This document shows positions 9,615 to 15,096 of a stretch of 34,918 nucleotides of DNA, piece by piece. The notes beneath the pieces are model-generated. The model was not told the origin of the DNA, did no database searches, and saw only the letters and a list, made by a program, of their open reading frames with translations. A program made the position numbers and the translations under genes. The DNA lies in assembly GCA_947581645.1 (NCBI GenBank), contig CANPVF010000154.1, positions 1 through 34,918 on the forward strand, written 5' to 3'. This stretch comes from Candidatus Caribbeanibacter nitroreducens (GTDB lineage Bacteria > Gemmatimonadota > Gemmatimonadetes > Palauibacterales > Palauibacteraceae). Numbering within the stretch: position 1 is the first letter of the stretch; every line of letters begins with the position of its first letter.

Positions 9615-10445
9615 GTGCCCGAGCTGCCCGAGGCCGAAACCATCACCCGGGAGATCTCCGGCGACCTGCAGGACCGCCGGATCACGGCGGTACGGGTGAC
9701 CCACGACGACATCCTGATGAACCGGGAGGGGGAGGCCGCCTTCGCCCGGGACGTGGTGGGCCGGCGGGTGACCCGGGTCGAGCGCCGTGCCAAGTATCCC
9801 CTCCTCTGGCTGGACGACGAGCTGGTGCTGGAGGTGCAGCTCCGGATGACCGGCCGCCTCATGGTCCGCCGCGAGCCGCCCGACCCGTCGCGCTTCTCGC
9901 ACGTGGAGGTGGAGATGGACCTGGACGACGGGACGGCGACCCTCTACTACGACGACCAGCGACGGCTCGGGGGCTTCCGGCTGCTCACCGCGGAGGAGTG
10001 GACGGAGCGGGAGGGCGACCTCGGCCCCGAGCCCGTGGACCCGGAGTTCGGGCCGGAGCTCCTGGCCACGATCCTCGACGGCCGCAGGGCGGCGGTGAAG
10101 AACCTCCTCATGGACCAGCGGCGGCTGGCCGGGGTCGGGAACATCTACGCCTCCGAGTCGCTGCACCGCGCCGGAGTCGACCCCCGCAGGCCCGCCGGCT
10201 CCCTGGGGGCGGAGGAGACCCGGCGCCTCAGCCGCTCGCTGCAGGACGTGCTCGAGGCCGCCATCCGTCACTTCGGCACAAGCTTCCGGGACTACGTCGG
10301 CGCCGACGGCCGCCCGGGGGACTTCCAGAACCACGTGCTCGTCTACGGCCGGGAGGGAGAGCCCTGTCCCGGATGCGGGTCGCCGGTCCGGCGGATCGTC
10401 CAGTCCGGACGCAGCACCTTCTTCTGCCCCGACTGTCAGGCCTGA
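9615..10445 (+). CDS. mutM: Formamidopyrimidine-DNA glycosylase
   Basis: Removes oxidised purines such as 8-oxoguanine and FaPy from DNA and nicks the strand (base excision repair). The 276-residue product starts GTG-PELPEAET, so the mature N-terminal Pro2 is the catalytic nucleophile and Glu3 the second catalytic residue. The conserved Lys is in RRAKYPLLW, the helix-two-turn-helix segment contains LAGVGNIYASE, and the C-terminal zinc finger is CPGCGS...FFCPDC with the conserved Arg in GRSTFF. The track's longer ORF begins inside purD in another frame; the PELPE motif fixes the start. Its 3' end overlaps the convergent phosphodiesterase gene by 10 bp. Confidence 0.96.
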   Translation: MPELPEAETITREISGDLQDRRITAVRVTHDDILMNREGEAAFARDVVGRRVTRVERRAKYPLLWLDDELVLEVQLRMTGRLMVRREPPDPSRFSHVEVEMDLDDGTATLYYDDQRRLGGFRLLTAEEWTEREGDLGPEPVDPEFGPELLATILDGRRAAVKNLLMDQRRLAGVGNIYASESLHRAGVDPRRPAGSLGAEETRRLSRSLQDVLEAAIRHFGTSFRDYVGADGRPGDFQNHVLVYGREGEPCPGCGSPVRRIVQSGRSTFFCPDCQA

Positions 10446-10966
10446 TCCGCCTCGCCGCCGGTCGGCCGCCACTCCTCGCCGGACTCCAGGTCCCGGACCT
10501 CGACCTCCAGCTCGCCGTCCGGCAGGATCCGGAGCAGGGCGGCGGTCACGGGCTTGCGGAAGCGCTTCGGACCCGCGCTCCCGGGGTTCAGGAGCAGCCG
10601 CCCGTCCTCCCGCCGGTCCACCTTCGGGACGTGGCTGTGGCCGTGGACGACGACCCGGGCGTCGGGAAACCGATCGAGGAGGGACCCGAAGTCCGCCACG
10701 CGGTGCCCGTGGGCGACGGCGATCCTGACGCCGGCCACTTCCAGCTCCACGTCCTCCTCGACCTCCCGGCGCACGTCCCAACCGTCCACGTTCCCCTCCA
10801 CCGCCCGGAGCGGCGCCAGCGTGGCGAGATCGGTGAGGATCTGTGGATCCCCGACGTCGCCGGCGTGGAGGATGAGGTCCACGCCGCGGAAGAGGCGCAG
10901 GACCTCGGGCCGCAGCGTTCCGTGGGTGTCGCTGACCACGCCCACCGTGGTCGCTCCGTCCGTCAT
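10436..10966 (-). CDS. YfcE/MJ0936-type metallophosphoesterase
   Basis: A 176-residue calcineurin-like phosphodiesterase. All metal-binding motifs are present in order: VVSDTHG (DxH), HAGDVGD (GDxxD), GNVDGW (GNxD), AHGH and VHGHSHVP (GHxHxP), followed by the usual NPGSAGPKR. Relatives hydrolyse phosphodiesters such as bis-pNPP in vitro; the natural substrate is unknown. The ATG at 10966 is well placed behind GGAGGGAGGG (6-base gap). It is transcribed convergently with mutM (10-bp overlap, no room for a terminator) and divergently from the sigma-factor operon. Confidence 0.92.
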   Translation of the reverse strand: MTDGATTVGVVSDTHGTLRPEVLRLFRGVDLILHAGDVGDPQILTDLATLAPLRAVEGNVDGWDVRREVEEDVELEVAGVRIAVAHGHRVADFGSLLDRFPDARVVVHGHSHVPKVDRREDGRLLLNPGSAGPKRFRKPVTAALLRILPDGELEVEVRDLESGEEWRPTGGEADQA

Positions 10967-11084: not shown

Positions 11085-11114
11085 TGAAACTCGTACCGGC
11101 CGCGCCCCGTAGGG
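11085..11114 (+). promoter_or_regulatory. ECF-sigma-type promoter P1 upstream of the sigma gene
   Basis: TGAAAC (11085-11090) and CGTAGGG (11108-11114) are separated by 17 bp, the layout of ECF promoters (GAAC-like -35, CGT-like -10). The same motif pair with the same spacing recurs at 11769-11798, just upstream of the anti-sigma gene. Autoregulation by the sigma factor encoded downstream is the likely reading. A start near 11119 would give a leader of about 45 nt before the GTG at 11166. Confidence 0.7.
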
Positions 11115-11165
11115 GGAGCCGGCGGGGAATGGTGCATCACCACGAACGAAGCGAGCGAGCGCCGG

Positions 11166-11771
11166 GTGGACTACGAGGCGCAGACAGACGAGGAGCTGGC
11201 CCAGCTGTGCGAGGGGGGCGACGAGCGCGCGGCCCGGGAACTCGTGTCCCGGTTCGAGCGACCCCTGTTCTCCCTCATCCGCCGCACGGTCCGCGACCAG
11301 GAGCTGGCCGAGGACCTGGCCCAGGAGGCCTTCGTTCGCGCCTTCAATCACCTGGACAGCTTCGATCCCAGCTACCAGTTCTCGTCCTGGCTGTTCAAGA
11401 TCGGCCACAACCTTGCCATCGACCACGTCCGAAAGAAGGGGCTGGACACGGTCTCCATCGAGGGCGCCCCCGACGCCGTGAGCCAGGAGCGGCAGGAGGC
11501 GACGTCCATCACCCTGGAGGCCCGGGGCGAGCGCCCGGACGAGGTCGCCGAGGCCCGGGCCCTGGGCGACGAGATCGAGGAGGCCATCGGCGAGCTGCGG
11601 CCCGAGTACCGGACCGCCGTCATGCTGCGCCACATCGAGGGCCACTCGTACCGGGAGATCGCCGAGATCATGGACACGCCGCTGGGCACGGTGAAGACGT
11701 ACATCCACCGTGCCCGCGGGGAGCTGCAGGACAGGCTCGCCCATCTCCGGCCCGAGGGGAGCGAGGCCTGA
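11166..11771 (+). CDS. ECF (RpoE-like) RNA polymerase sigma factor
   Basis: A 201-residue two-domain sigma factor. Region 2 is around DLAQEAFVRAFNHL / FSSWLFKIGHNLAIDHVRKK (the -10 recognition and core-binding helices). Region 4 contains LRPEYRTAVMLRHIEG and the HTH SYREIAEIMDTPLGTVKTYIHRAR. An acidic linker joins them; no extra C-terminal ECF domains are seen. The start is GTG 11166: an ATG at 11133 is out of frame, and Shine-Dalgarno support is weak. The next gene is a zinc-finger anti-sigma factor, the standard regulator arrangement. ECF-like promoter motifs lie upstream and overlap its stop codon. Confidence 0.95.
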   Translation: MDYEAQTDEELAQLCEGGDERAARELVSRFERPLFSLIRRTVRDQELAEDLAQEAFVRAFNHLDSFDPSYQFSSWLFKIGHNLAIDHVRKKGLDTVSIEGAPDAVSQERQEATSITLEARGERPDEVAEARALGDEIEEAIGELRPEYRTAVMLRHIEGHSYREIAEIMDTPLGTVKTYIHRARGELQDRLAHLRPEGSEA

Positions 11772-11798
11772 AACCTCTGAGCCACGGTCCCCGTAGGG
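11769..11798 (+). promoter_or_regulatory. ECF-sigma-type promoter P2, overlapping the sigma stop codon
   Basis: TGAAAC (11769-11774) and CGTAGGG (11792-11798) with a 17-bp spacer repeat the P1 motif. The TGA of the sigma gene is the first three bases of the -35 element. A start near 11803 would transcribe the anti-sigma gene (ATG 11827) and the two envelope genes separately from the sigma gene. Confidence 0.7.
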
Positions 11799-11826
11799 TG
11801 GGGCGAACCGAGGAGAGGATCAGACG

Positions 11827-12429
11827 ATGAACGAACAACGAACCCGACAGCACCTCGAGACGGAGGAGCTGGAGCGCGTGGCCATGCAGGAAGGCACGCT
11901 TCCGGCGCCGCGGCGGGAGCACCTGGACGGGTGTGCCCGCTGTCGCCGGGAGCTGGCCTCCCTGGAGGAACTGCACGTCGCGCTCTCGGGCCTCCCGTAC
12001 CACGCCCCGTCGCCGGGCTTCGCGGACGCCGTGATGAGCCGCGTCGACCTGGCGAAGCCGTGGTACGTGCAGCTGCTGACCCGGAACTGGACGCCGGTGG
12101 CCGGCGTCTCCGCCGGGGCCCTCGCCCTCGCGGCGATCGGGTTCTGGACCTGGCTGTTCACGCGGGGCGGAGTGGCCCTGGAGTCCGTCCTCTCGGTGGC
12201 GGCGGAGTGGGCCCGGACCGCGCTGTGGGACCTGGTCGTCGGCGCCGGACGCATCCTGGTCGACACCGGGATCGGCCCGACCGCGGTGGAGGCGGCGCAG
12301 TCGCTGACGCCGGGTGCGGCCGCGGCGATCCTGGCGGTCCTCGCCGTCCTCGGGACGCTGGCCTCGGTGACCGTCTTCAAGCTCATGGAACTCCCCGTGC
12401 CGGCCCTCGGCTCGGCGCGTCGATCATAG
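11827..12429 (+). CDS. Zinc-finger (ZAS) anti-sigma factor, membrane anchored
   Basis: A 200-residue anti-sigma factor that should hold the adjacent ECF sigma factor at the membrane. The N-terminal cytoplasmic domain has the zinc motif H32-x3-C36-x2-C39 in REHLDGCARC, the ZAS signature. Two hydrophobic segments follow: about residues 82-100 (VAGVSAGALALAAIGFWTW) and about 155-182 (AAAAILAVLAVLGTLASVTVF), with an amphipathic stretch between them. The ATG at 11827 follows GAGGAGAGGATC. It sits 55 bp after the sigma gene with its own candidate ECF promoter, and 11 bp before the next gene. The signal that releases the sigma factor cannot be read from the sequence. Confidence 0.92.
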   Translation: MNEQRTRQHLETEELERVAMQEGTLPAPRREHLDGCARCRRELASLEELHVALSGLPYHAPSPGFADAVMSRVDLAKPWYVQLLTRNWTPVAGVSAGALALAAIGFWTWLFTRGGVALESVLSVAAEWARTALWDLVVGAGRILVDTGIGPTAVEAAQSLTPGAAAAILAVLAVLGTLASVTVFKLMELPVPALGSARRS

Positions 12430-12440
12430 AAGGAGCAAGG

Positions 12441-14189
12441 ATGAGAGACTCGACCCGCACCATCCGGAGATCGGCACGCGCGTTCCTGGCGGCGGCCGCG
12501 GCGGTGGCCCTGGCATGGGCCGCCGGTCCGGGGGCCTCGCCGCTCCCGGCCCAGGCGCAGGAGGCCGCCGACACCGCCGTCGTGGAAGAGGTCTCCATTA
12601 CCGTGGGGCCCGACCGGGCGGCGCTCATGGCGGAGCTCTCCGACGGGACCGCGGCGGACATCGCCCTGGAGGACGGCGACGTCGTCGTGGGTGGAGAGAC
12701 CCGCGCCGGCTACACGCCGGGCGGCGAGCTCGAATCGGCCTGGCGCGAGTTCCTGCGGAACCGCGTCGATCCCGGCGGCGCCGACCTGGCCGCGTCCCTG
12801 GAGGCGTGGTCGCCGCCCTCCGGCGCCGACTCCGCCGCTGCCGACGCGCTGACCGCGGCCGTCGCCGAGCTGGCCGCGGTGGCGCAGAGGAGCGCGCCCA
12901 CCGCCGCCCCCGACACCGAGACCGCGGGCGAGGAAGAGAGCGCGGCGGCCGACACCGGAACGCTGACGGGGGAGGAGACCCGCGTGGCGCCGTCCGGCCG
13001 TCCCCTGGACGAGCTTCGGGACGGACTCCGGCGCCTCCGGAGCTCGCTGGAGCGGGTCGGACGCGGCGTGGGCGCCATGGGCGAGGCCTCCCTGGTCGTG
13101 CACGACGACTACGAGATCGAGGAAGGCCGGAGCGTGGCCGGTGACGTGGCGCTGCTCTCCGGTGAGCTCACGGTGGCCGGTGACGTGGGCGGCGACGTGC
13201 TGGTGCTGGACGGCGACCTGGTACTCGAGTCCACCGCCGTCGTCGAGGGCGACATCCTCCAGGTCGGAGGCTCCGTGACCAACCGGGGCGGGAGCATCGG
13301 CGGCGAACTCGTCTCCATCGGCGGCGACCGGGCCATCACCCGCGACATGGAGGAGTCCTTCGGCGAGCCGCCGGCGCCTCCCGAGGCGGACGACGACTGG
13401 GAGGAGCGCTACGGTCCGGACCGCGGCATCGGCTGGACCATCTGGGACAACCTCCGGGACGGGTTCAACAAGCTGTCGCTGACCATCAGCTTCTTCATCG
13501 TCCTGGCGATCTTCGGCGCCATCCCCCTCTACTTCGCCCGGGAGGAGTTCGAGGTCACCGCCGCCACGGTGCGGCACAGCTTCGTGCGCTCCTTCCTGCT
13601 CGGCCTGGCGGGACAGGTGCTCTTCCTCCCGGCCCTGGTCGTGCTCGCCGTGGGCATACTCACGGTGCCGCTCATACCGGTGTTCATGCTCGCCGTGGCC
13701 CTGGCCTTCGCCGGTGGCTACGTGGCCGTGGGCTACGCCGTCGGCGACCTGGTCCGGGAGCGGGGCTACGACTGGCTCCGGCGGCTGGCCTCCGGCCCGT
13801 ACCGGACGCTCCTCGTCGGCCTGGCGGCGCTCCAGATCCTGTACGTCGTGATCTCCTTCCTGGACTTCTTCGGCGGCGTCACCGGCCCGCTGTACGGCCT
13901 GGCCTGGGCCGGTGCCACGGTGGTGACCTGGATCGCCTTCACCGCCGGGTTCGGCGGCGTGGCGCTCTCCTACGCCGGCACGCGGGACGACTGGGCCGGT
14001 CCGGGCGGACCGGGCGGCGGGTCCACGCCGCCGGTGCCGCCGGCGGGCGACGAGTCCGCGCCTCCTCCGGGCCCCGAGACCGGCGGGCCGTCGCCCGATG
14101 AGGGCGCCGAGCCCCCCGTCTCGGGCCGGGATCCCCGGGAGCCGGGGGCGGGTGGCGCCCCGGAGGCCGGGGAGGACCGCCGTGCGTAG
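12441..14189 (+). CDS. Membrane protein with bactofilin-like (polymer-forming) segment
   Basis: A 582-residue protein in the sigma/anti-sigma operon. It has an N-terminal signal peptide (AFLAAAAAVALAWAAG...AQAQ) and an Ala/Glu/Thr-rich low-complexity exported region to about residue 200. A run of short beta repeats follows (GDVALLSGELTVAGDVGGDV, then GDLVLE / EGDILQVGG / GGELVSIGG), resembling the bactofilin right-handed beta-helix. Four to five transmembrane helices lie between about 345 and 520, and the tail is Pro/Gly-rich. Start ATG 12441 follows AGAAGGAGCAAGG. Bactofilin-like repeats fused to a membrane domain suggest an envelope scaffold or stress sensor; the exact function is unknown. 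Confidence 0.75.
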   Translation: MRDSTRTIRRSARAFLAAAAAVALAWAAGPGASPLPAQAQEAADTAVVEEVSITVGPDRAALMAELSDGTAADIALEDGDVVVGGETRAGYTPGGELESAWREFLRNRVDPGGADLAASLEAWSPPSGADSAAADALTAAVAELAAVAQRSAPTAAPDTETAGEEESAAADTGTLTGEETRVAPSGRPLDELRDGLRRLRSSLERVGRGVGAMGEASLVVHDDYEIEEGRSVAGDVALLSGELTVAGDVGGDVLVLDGDLVLESTAVVEGDILQVGGSVTNRGGSIGGELVSIGGDRAITRDMEESFGEPPAPPEADDDWEERYGPDRGIGWTIWDNLRDGFNKLSLTISFFIVLAIFGAIPLYFAREEFEVTAATVRHSFVRSFLLGLAGQVLFLPALVVLAVGILTVPLIPVFMLAVALAFAGGYVAVGYAVGDLVRERGYDWLRRLASGPYRTLLVGLAALQILYVVISFLDFFGGVTGPLYGLAWAGATVVTWIAFTAGFGGVALSYAGTRDDWAGPGGPGGGSTPPVPPAGDESAPPPGPETGGPSPDEGAEPPVSGRDPREPGAGGAPEAGEDRRA

Positions 14190-15096
14190 CGGCGCGCTCA
14201 CGGCCGGCGTCGGGGCCGCCCTCCTGCTCCTCGCCCTACCGGCGGGGGTCCGGTCGCAGGAGATGACGGAGGTCCGCACCGCCCGGCGTGACGTGGACCA
14301 GGCCGAGCGGATGGACGTCGAGGTCGAGTACGCCGCCGGGAGGATCACGGTGGACCGCGCCGACCCGGGCTACCTCTATCAGAAGTACGTCCGCTACGAC
14401 GCCTCGCGCTTCGAGCCCACGAGACGGTGGACCCGGGAGGACGGCTCCGCCCTCCTCGAGCTCGGCATGGAGAGCACCGGCGACGGGGGCCGCTGGATCC
14501 GGTGGGACGGCCTGGACATCGACTTCGACCTGGGCGGACTGGAGAACCTGAACGAGGCCAGCAGCACCCTGGACCTGGGGCTCTCCCGCTCGGTTCCCAC
14601 CTCCCTGAGCCTCAGGATCGGGGCGGCCGAGTCGACGCTCCGCCTGGGCGGCCTCCCCCTGACCTCGCTGAGCCTGGAGACGGGCGCCAGCGAGACGGAG
14701 CTGACGTTCGAGCGGCCGAACCCGGAGCGCATGGACCGGCTGGAGATCGAGGCCGGGGCGGCGTCGCTCCGGACCCGGAGCCTGGGCAACGCCCGCTTCG
14801 GCGAGCTCCGGCTGGAGGGAGGCGTCGGCGACGTCCGGCTGGACTTCACCGGCGAGTGGACCCGGGACGCCACGGCCACCGTGGAGGTGGGGCTCGGCTC
14901 CCTGCGCCTGGTCTTCCCGGAGGAGCTGGGCGTGAGGATCCGCCGTGAGAGCTTCCTGGCGTCCTTCGACGTGCCGGGCAGCTTCGAGCGGACCGACGAG
15001 GGCTACCGGAGCGAGAACTGGTCGTCGGCGGAGCATCGGCTGACGCTGGACCTGTCCTCCGCCCTGGGATCCGTACGGATCAGCGTCCGGGACTGA
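14182..15096 (+). CDS. Predicted exported beta-rich (DUF4097/toastrack-like) protein
   Basis: A 304-residue protein whose GTG start (14182-14184) overlaps the end of the previous gene by 8 bp, with GGAGG 6 bases upstream; this explains why the track's longer ORF was not used. It has a signal peptide (ALTAGVGAALLLLALPAGVRSQ). The mature part repeats short strands such as LSLRIGAAESTLRLGGL, LSLETGASETELTFE, LEIEAGAASLRTRS and LRLEGGVGDVRLDF. That resembles the beta-solenoid-like adhesin repeats of DUF4097/LiaF-type proteins. Together with the bactofilin-like protein it suggests an ECF-controlled envelope function. The family call is by pattern only. Confidence 0.7.
   Translation: MRSGALTAGVGAALLLLALPAGVRSQEMTEVRTARRDVDQAERMDVEVEYAAGRITVDRADPGYLYQKYVRYDASRFEPTRRWTREDGSALLELGMESTGDGGRWIRWDGLDIDFDLGGLENLNEASSTLDLGLSRSVPTSLSLRIGAAESTLRLGGLPLTSLSLETGASETELTFERPNPERMDRLEIEAGAASLRTRSLGNARFGELRLEGGVGDVRLDFTGEWTRDATATVEVGLGSLRLVFPEELGVRIRRESFLASFDVPGSFERTDEGYRSENWSSAEHRLTLDLSSALGSVRISVRD

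Follow-up and report, generated by a model that had tools for sequence, protein, structure and literature searches.

ECF sigma factor systems are usually described as a single autoregulated operon of sigma and anti-sigma genes, read from a promoter at its head. The full SigW promoter consensus is TGAAAC-N16-CGTA. The SigW -35 box is ATTGAAACCTTT, which contains TGAAAC (PMC8103513). Promoters dedicated to the anti-sigma gene have also been described. In Corynebacterium glutamicum, the SigH-dependent promoter PrshA drives only rshA and has been proposed to shut down the response quickly (PMC3489674). The Escherichia coli rpoE-rseABC operon has two sigma-dependent promoters, rpoE P before the sigma operon and rseA P3 for the anti-sigma genes; rseA P3 lies inside rpoE, more than 230 nt before rseA, and its long leader is inhibitory (PMC8595263). 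Given these experimental precedents for both layouts (C. glutamicum PrshA and E. coli rseA P3), the kind of circuit that we describe here is already known. What seems new, relative to the searchable open literature, is a SigW-like family in which an anti-sigma promoter is universal across a phylum, the reverse of the arrangement in Bacilli.

We analyzed a 34,918-nt stretch of DNA from a Gemmatimonadota genome (the window), which carries a sigma/anti-sigma operon on the forward strand. The sigma gene (11166–11771, GTG start) encodes 201 amino acids, consisting of Sigma70_r2 and Sigma70_r4_2 joined by a short linker, as is characteristic of ECF (group IV) sigma factors. It scores above the cut-off of the sigma70-ECF model TIGR02937. 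Its best NCBIfam match is SigW, at 145 bits against a cut-off of 209 (NF007223), and it scores 130 bits against a cut-off of 243 for TIGR02948, so it falls below the SigW equivalog level with both models. The best relative with a solved structure is Bacillus subtilis SigW (5wuq, E 2e-29). By sequence, Bacillus SigW is the closest characterized relative of the window sigma.

The next gene (11827–12429), preceded by a likely ribosome-binding site (GAGGAGAGG, 11810–11818), encodes a 200-residue putative anti-sigma factor with an HxxxCxxC zinc motif and, by eye, hydrophobic segments. Its profile matches are weak (zf-HC2; an NCBIfam anti-sigma model at 3e-8, below cut-off). A cognate anti-sigma gene beside the sigma gene is typical of ECF systems, and here the assignment draws on the HxxxCxxC motif and on conservation of the neighbor in relatives. 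Gene 3 (12441–14189) encodes an exported or membrane protein of 582 amino acids with a weak bactofilin-like stretch. Gene 4 (14182–15096) encodes a protein with a LiaF-like C-terminal domain (LiaF-like_C, E 2.6e-5, below cut-off) and likely starts at the GTG at 14182, overlapping the stop of gene 3. On the other strand, a divergent calcineurin-like phosphoesterase gene (10436–10966) adjoins the sigma promoter region; by eye, similar sequence lies upstream of sigma in some relatives.

The initial annotation reported two copies of TGAAAC-N17-CGTAGGG flanking the sigma gene, with the sigma stop codon forming the start of the second -35 element. Both copies are exact, each with a spacer of 17 nt. 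The upstream site, P1 (11085–11114, forward strand), has its -35 element TGAAAC at 11085–11090 and its -10 element CGTA at 11108–11111, followed by GGG. The junction site, P2 (11769–11798, forward strand), has TGAAAC at 11769–11774 and CGTA at 11792–11795, again followed by GGG; the TGA at 11769–11771 is indeed the sigma stop, and 31 nt separate CGTA from the anti-sigma ATG. The TGA of P1 is an in-frame stop just 5' of the sigma ORF, so the sigma frame is open exactly from motif to motif. With the spacer relaxed to 16–18 nt, these are the only two matches in the window, and none of 100 shuffled windows gave a match. The further remark that no third copy was found applies inside the window; genome-wide, the same form occurs at nine sites. 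AAC/CGT-type promoters at the sigma factor's own operon are expected of ECF (group IV) members, and TGAAAC-N17-CGTA is found here at 11085 and 11769. At the sequence level, 11769–11798 is a cognate-type promoter directly 5' of the anti-sigma gene, as in the PrshA and rseA P3 circuits. The window also resembles SigW systems in having a TGAAAC...CGTA site upstream of sigma, with spacer 17; in the Bacilli loci that we analyzed, the spacer is 16 or 17.

To compare relatives, we gathered loci by protein similarity alone, using anti-sigma matches for related genomes and sigma matches for named genomes. Removal of near-duplicates left 40 Gemmatimonadota and 28 Bacilli loci; these come from related lineages and are not independent events, and Gemmatimonadota is represented here almost entirely by metagenome-assembled genomes. 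We searched for NGAAAC-N16-18-CGTA in two regions of 200 nt each, one spanning the sigma/anti-sigma junction and one upstream of sigma, and took expectations from dinucleotide shuffles. This search of relatives, proposed with the initial annotation, found the motif conserved together with the operon. It is present at the junction in all 40 Gemmatimonadota loci (0.035 expected), always with a spacer of 17, and upstream of sigma in 22 of the 40 (0.065 expected). Background windows elsewhere in the Gemmatimonadota loci gave 0 of 745 matches on the same strand and two on the other strand. In Bacilli the pattern is reversed: the motif lies upstream of sigma in 27 of 28 loci and at the junction in 0 of 28. 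Absence upstream means here that no GAAAC...CGTA was found; some of these loci have weaker forms such as CCAAAC-N17-CGTA. The longer CGTAGGG form, which was tried first in relatives, missed most junction sites because GGG is not conserved, and GAAAC-N17-CGTA is the better definition. Of the junction copies, 30 begin with T, 8 with C and 2 with A; of the upstream copies, 8 begin with T, 13 with C and 1 with G, which places the junction copy nearer to the consensus. On this comparative evidence, it is the internal copy that is conserved, the copy before sigma being optional.

The junction site keeps its place relative to the anti-sigma gene. Among the 33 loci in which an HxxxCxxC ORF was present, the -10 element lies a median of 32 nt from the anti-sigma start (interquartile range 31–34), whereas the site lies anywhere from -42 to +98 nt relative to the sigma stop. 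A constant distance to the anti-sigma start combined with drift against the sigma stop is the behavior expected of an anti-sigma promoter. A genus-level clade, g6 (11 loci among L098–L112), has the site embedded in sigma coding sequence, where it begins 42 nt before the stop and reads AGA AAC ... CTC GTA. The AGA and GTA codons are invariant in all 11 loci, while the rest of these sigma genes use AGA for 0 of 206 arginine codons and GTA for 1 of 130 valine codons. Synonymous divergence is also low at the embedded site. It is equally low at the gene start, so this is weak evidence by itself and the rare codon usage is stronger.

The explanation that we favor, and consider very probable, is that both sites are promoters for the SigW-like sigma and that P2, by driving the genes for the anti-sigma factor and the envelope proteins, provides negative feedback. 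From motif identity, genome-wide enrichment, conservation, spacing, distance to the start codon and SigW relatedness, all computed directly, we infer promoter activity, the identity of the sigma factor that reads the sites and the feedback function. P1 and P2 would act as -35/-10 promoters for RNA polymerase carrying the ECF sigma encoded between them. P1 would give positive autoregulation of the whole operon, and P2 a second transcript that lacks sigma and encodes the anti-sigma factor, the bactofilin-like protein and the LiaF-like protein. Envelope stress would free sigma from its membrane anti-sigma; the freed sigma would amplify itself through P1 and, through P2, yield more newly made anti-sigma and envelope protein than sigma, and this surplus would limit and then end the response. 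In lineages with no recognizable upstream site, sigma would drive its inhibitor and not itself. The initial annotation suggested autoregulation and a separate expression of anti-sigma and envelope genes; by comparison, both are well supported by the conserved motif, the fixed spacing and anti-sigma distance, and the SigW-like sigma. Several points count against this explanation: the anti-sigma gene is read from the sigma transcript as well, the window sigma is below the SigW equivalog cut-off, and another of the 19 sigma factors in the genome could read the motif.

The known systems each share part of this arrangement. Bacillus SigW-RsiW is similar in sigma sequence (5wuq), in the TGAAAC...CGTA promoter, in the zinc-type membrane anti-sigma encoded beside sigma and in its envelope targets, and differs in where the motif lies (upstream of sigma in 27 of 28 Bacilli loci, with no junction copy) and in the sub-cut-off SigW score of the window sigma. 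C. glutamicum SigH-RshA has a sigma-dependent promoter for the anti-sigma gene, as proposed here, but belongs to another ECF group (disulfide and heat stress) with another promoter motif, and sigH is transcribed from housekeeping promoters only (PMC3489674), whereas in the window a sigma-type site lies upstream as well. E. coli rpoE-rseABC has a pair of sigma-dependent promoters, again as proposed here; unlike rseA P3, the window site is at the stop codon, has a short leader and is found throughout the phylum (PMC8595263). A broader proposal, on which we are evenly divided, is that the SigW-like envelope sigma of Gemmatimonadota is wired mainly for induction of its inhibitor and only optionally for induction of itself. 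This would be a phylum-wide homeostat and the reverse of the Bacilli SigW layout, in which the junction promoter stays at a set distance from the anti-sigma start but shifts between positions inside and outside the sigma coding sequence. Every Gemmatimonadota lineage examined keeps the inhibitor promoter, and nearly half have no recognizable promoter before sigma, which makes feedback sign and strength a comparative trait that is open to direct testing. A promoter search confined to sequence 5' of sigma genes would overlook the conserved site.

Pattern searches of the whole genome (2.96 Mb, 199 contigs) provide a motif and a target list for the phylum. The nine sites of the CGTAGGG form become 15 when the motif is TGAAAC-N17-CGTA; reversed controls gave 0 for both. 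Among 60 related genomes, 59 carry motif sites, far above controls. At most of the other sites in the genome, an ORF with high GC3 begins 46–98 nt past the -10 element and usually has, by eye, a signal peptide or membrane segment. Candidate regulon members include an HlyD family protein (L001), a DUF4097 protein (L005/L220), CBM9 proteins (L006, and L212 with DUF5916), a DUF5694 protein (L222), a gene 3 paralogue (L003/L217) and, by sequence, an ABC-type ATPase (L218); further sites precede small membrane or lipoprotein-like ORFs. The L003 gene (from 7626) lies behind its own motif (C112:7545–7574) and is paralogous to the C-terminal membrane part of gene 3. At another site in the same genome (L002/L214, C73:2902–2931), the TGA of the -35 element is the stop codon of a long upstream gene that is TPR-like by eye.

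Such targets also fit a different purpose for P2, that it was selected mainly to raise the envelope proteins of genes 3 and 4, with extra anti-sigma a by-product of gene order and feedback not its purpose. Relatives of gene 3 come after the anti-sigma gene in most related loci, and the other motif sites precede genes for exported or membrane proteins. In all 40 loci, however, the promoter is before the anti-sigma gene and not between it and gene 3, and it is the anti-sigma start to which the distance is constant. We regard this purpose as possible but the less likely one; a double role of P2 is still compatible with the data.

It is very unlikely that the sites, as genuine promoters, are served by one of the other ECF sigma factors that the genome encodes. 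There are 19 sigma70_r2 proteins to choose from and AAC/CGT-type motifs are common to several ECF sigma factors (PMC8103513), but the motif flanks only the window sigma gene, the nearest characterized relative, SigW, uses this motif, and the junction site tracks the window-type operon across the phylum.

The shared stop codon could itself be functional, coupling termination of sigma translation to initiation at P2. Sigma ends at the TGA of the junction motif in the window, the g2/g4 clade, L107, L130 and L140, which together make 10 of the 40 loci and fall in several parts of the tree, and a TAG stop lies inside the -10 sequence CGTAG in L137 and in two loci titled Acidobacteria (L146 and L149). 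Placements relative to the stop change at least eight times on the sigma tree, a quick tree with many weak branches and four rows left out. Yet 29 of the 40 junctions show no overlap of either kind and still have the promoter motif, and what stays constant is how far the site lies from the anti-sigma start. Since the motif itself contains TGA in its -35 element and often TAG in its -10 element, overlap is easy packing. We ranked a special role for the overlap low because most relatives are without it, and coupling of this kind is very improbable. Reuse of the stop codon is one among several placements that can stand in for one another. It is recurrent but probably incidental, as suggested by a junction site that keeps its distance to the anti-sigma start while drifting against the stop; the common TGA is a sequence economy with no demonstrated function.

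A chance repeat, or the site of an unrelated DNA-binding protein, is scarcely credible given counts far above shuffles and reversed controls, a two-box spacing of strictly 17 and a constant distance to the start codon.

Three loci titled Acidobacteria (L146, L147 and L149) also have the junction motif. The layout may predate the phylum or have been transferred, or the bins may be misnamed. In the g6 clade, a conserved block, GCGCATATTGGTCG...GAGCCGTGTAGGGTGGG, lies about 80–110 nt upstream of sigma where the ECF motif is missing and is possibly another type of promoter for sigma. In the g4 clade (L089–L092), the region upstream of sigma has a conserved TTATGA[TC]GGGCCAAACGGATCAGCAACGT; TATGAT resembles a housekeeping -10 element, so sigma may be made constitutively in these loci.
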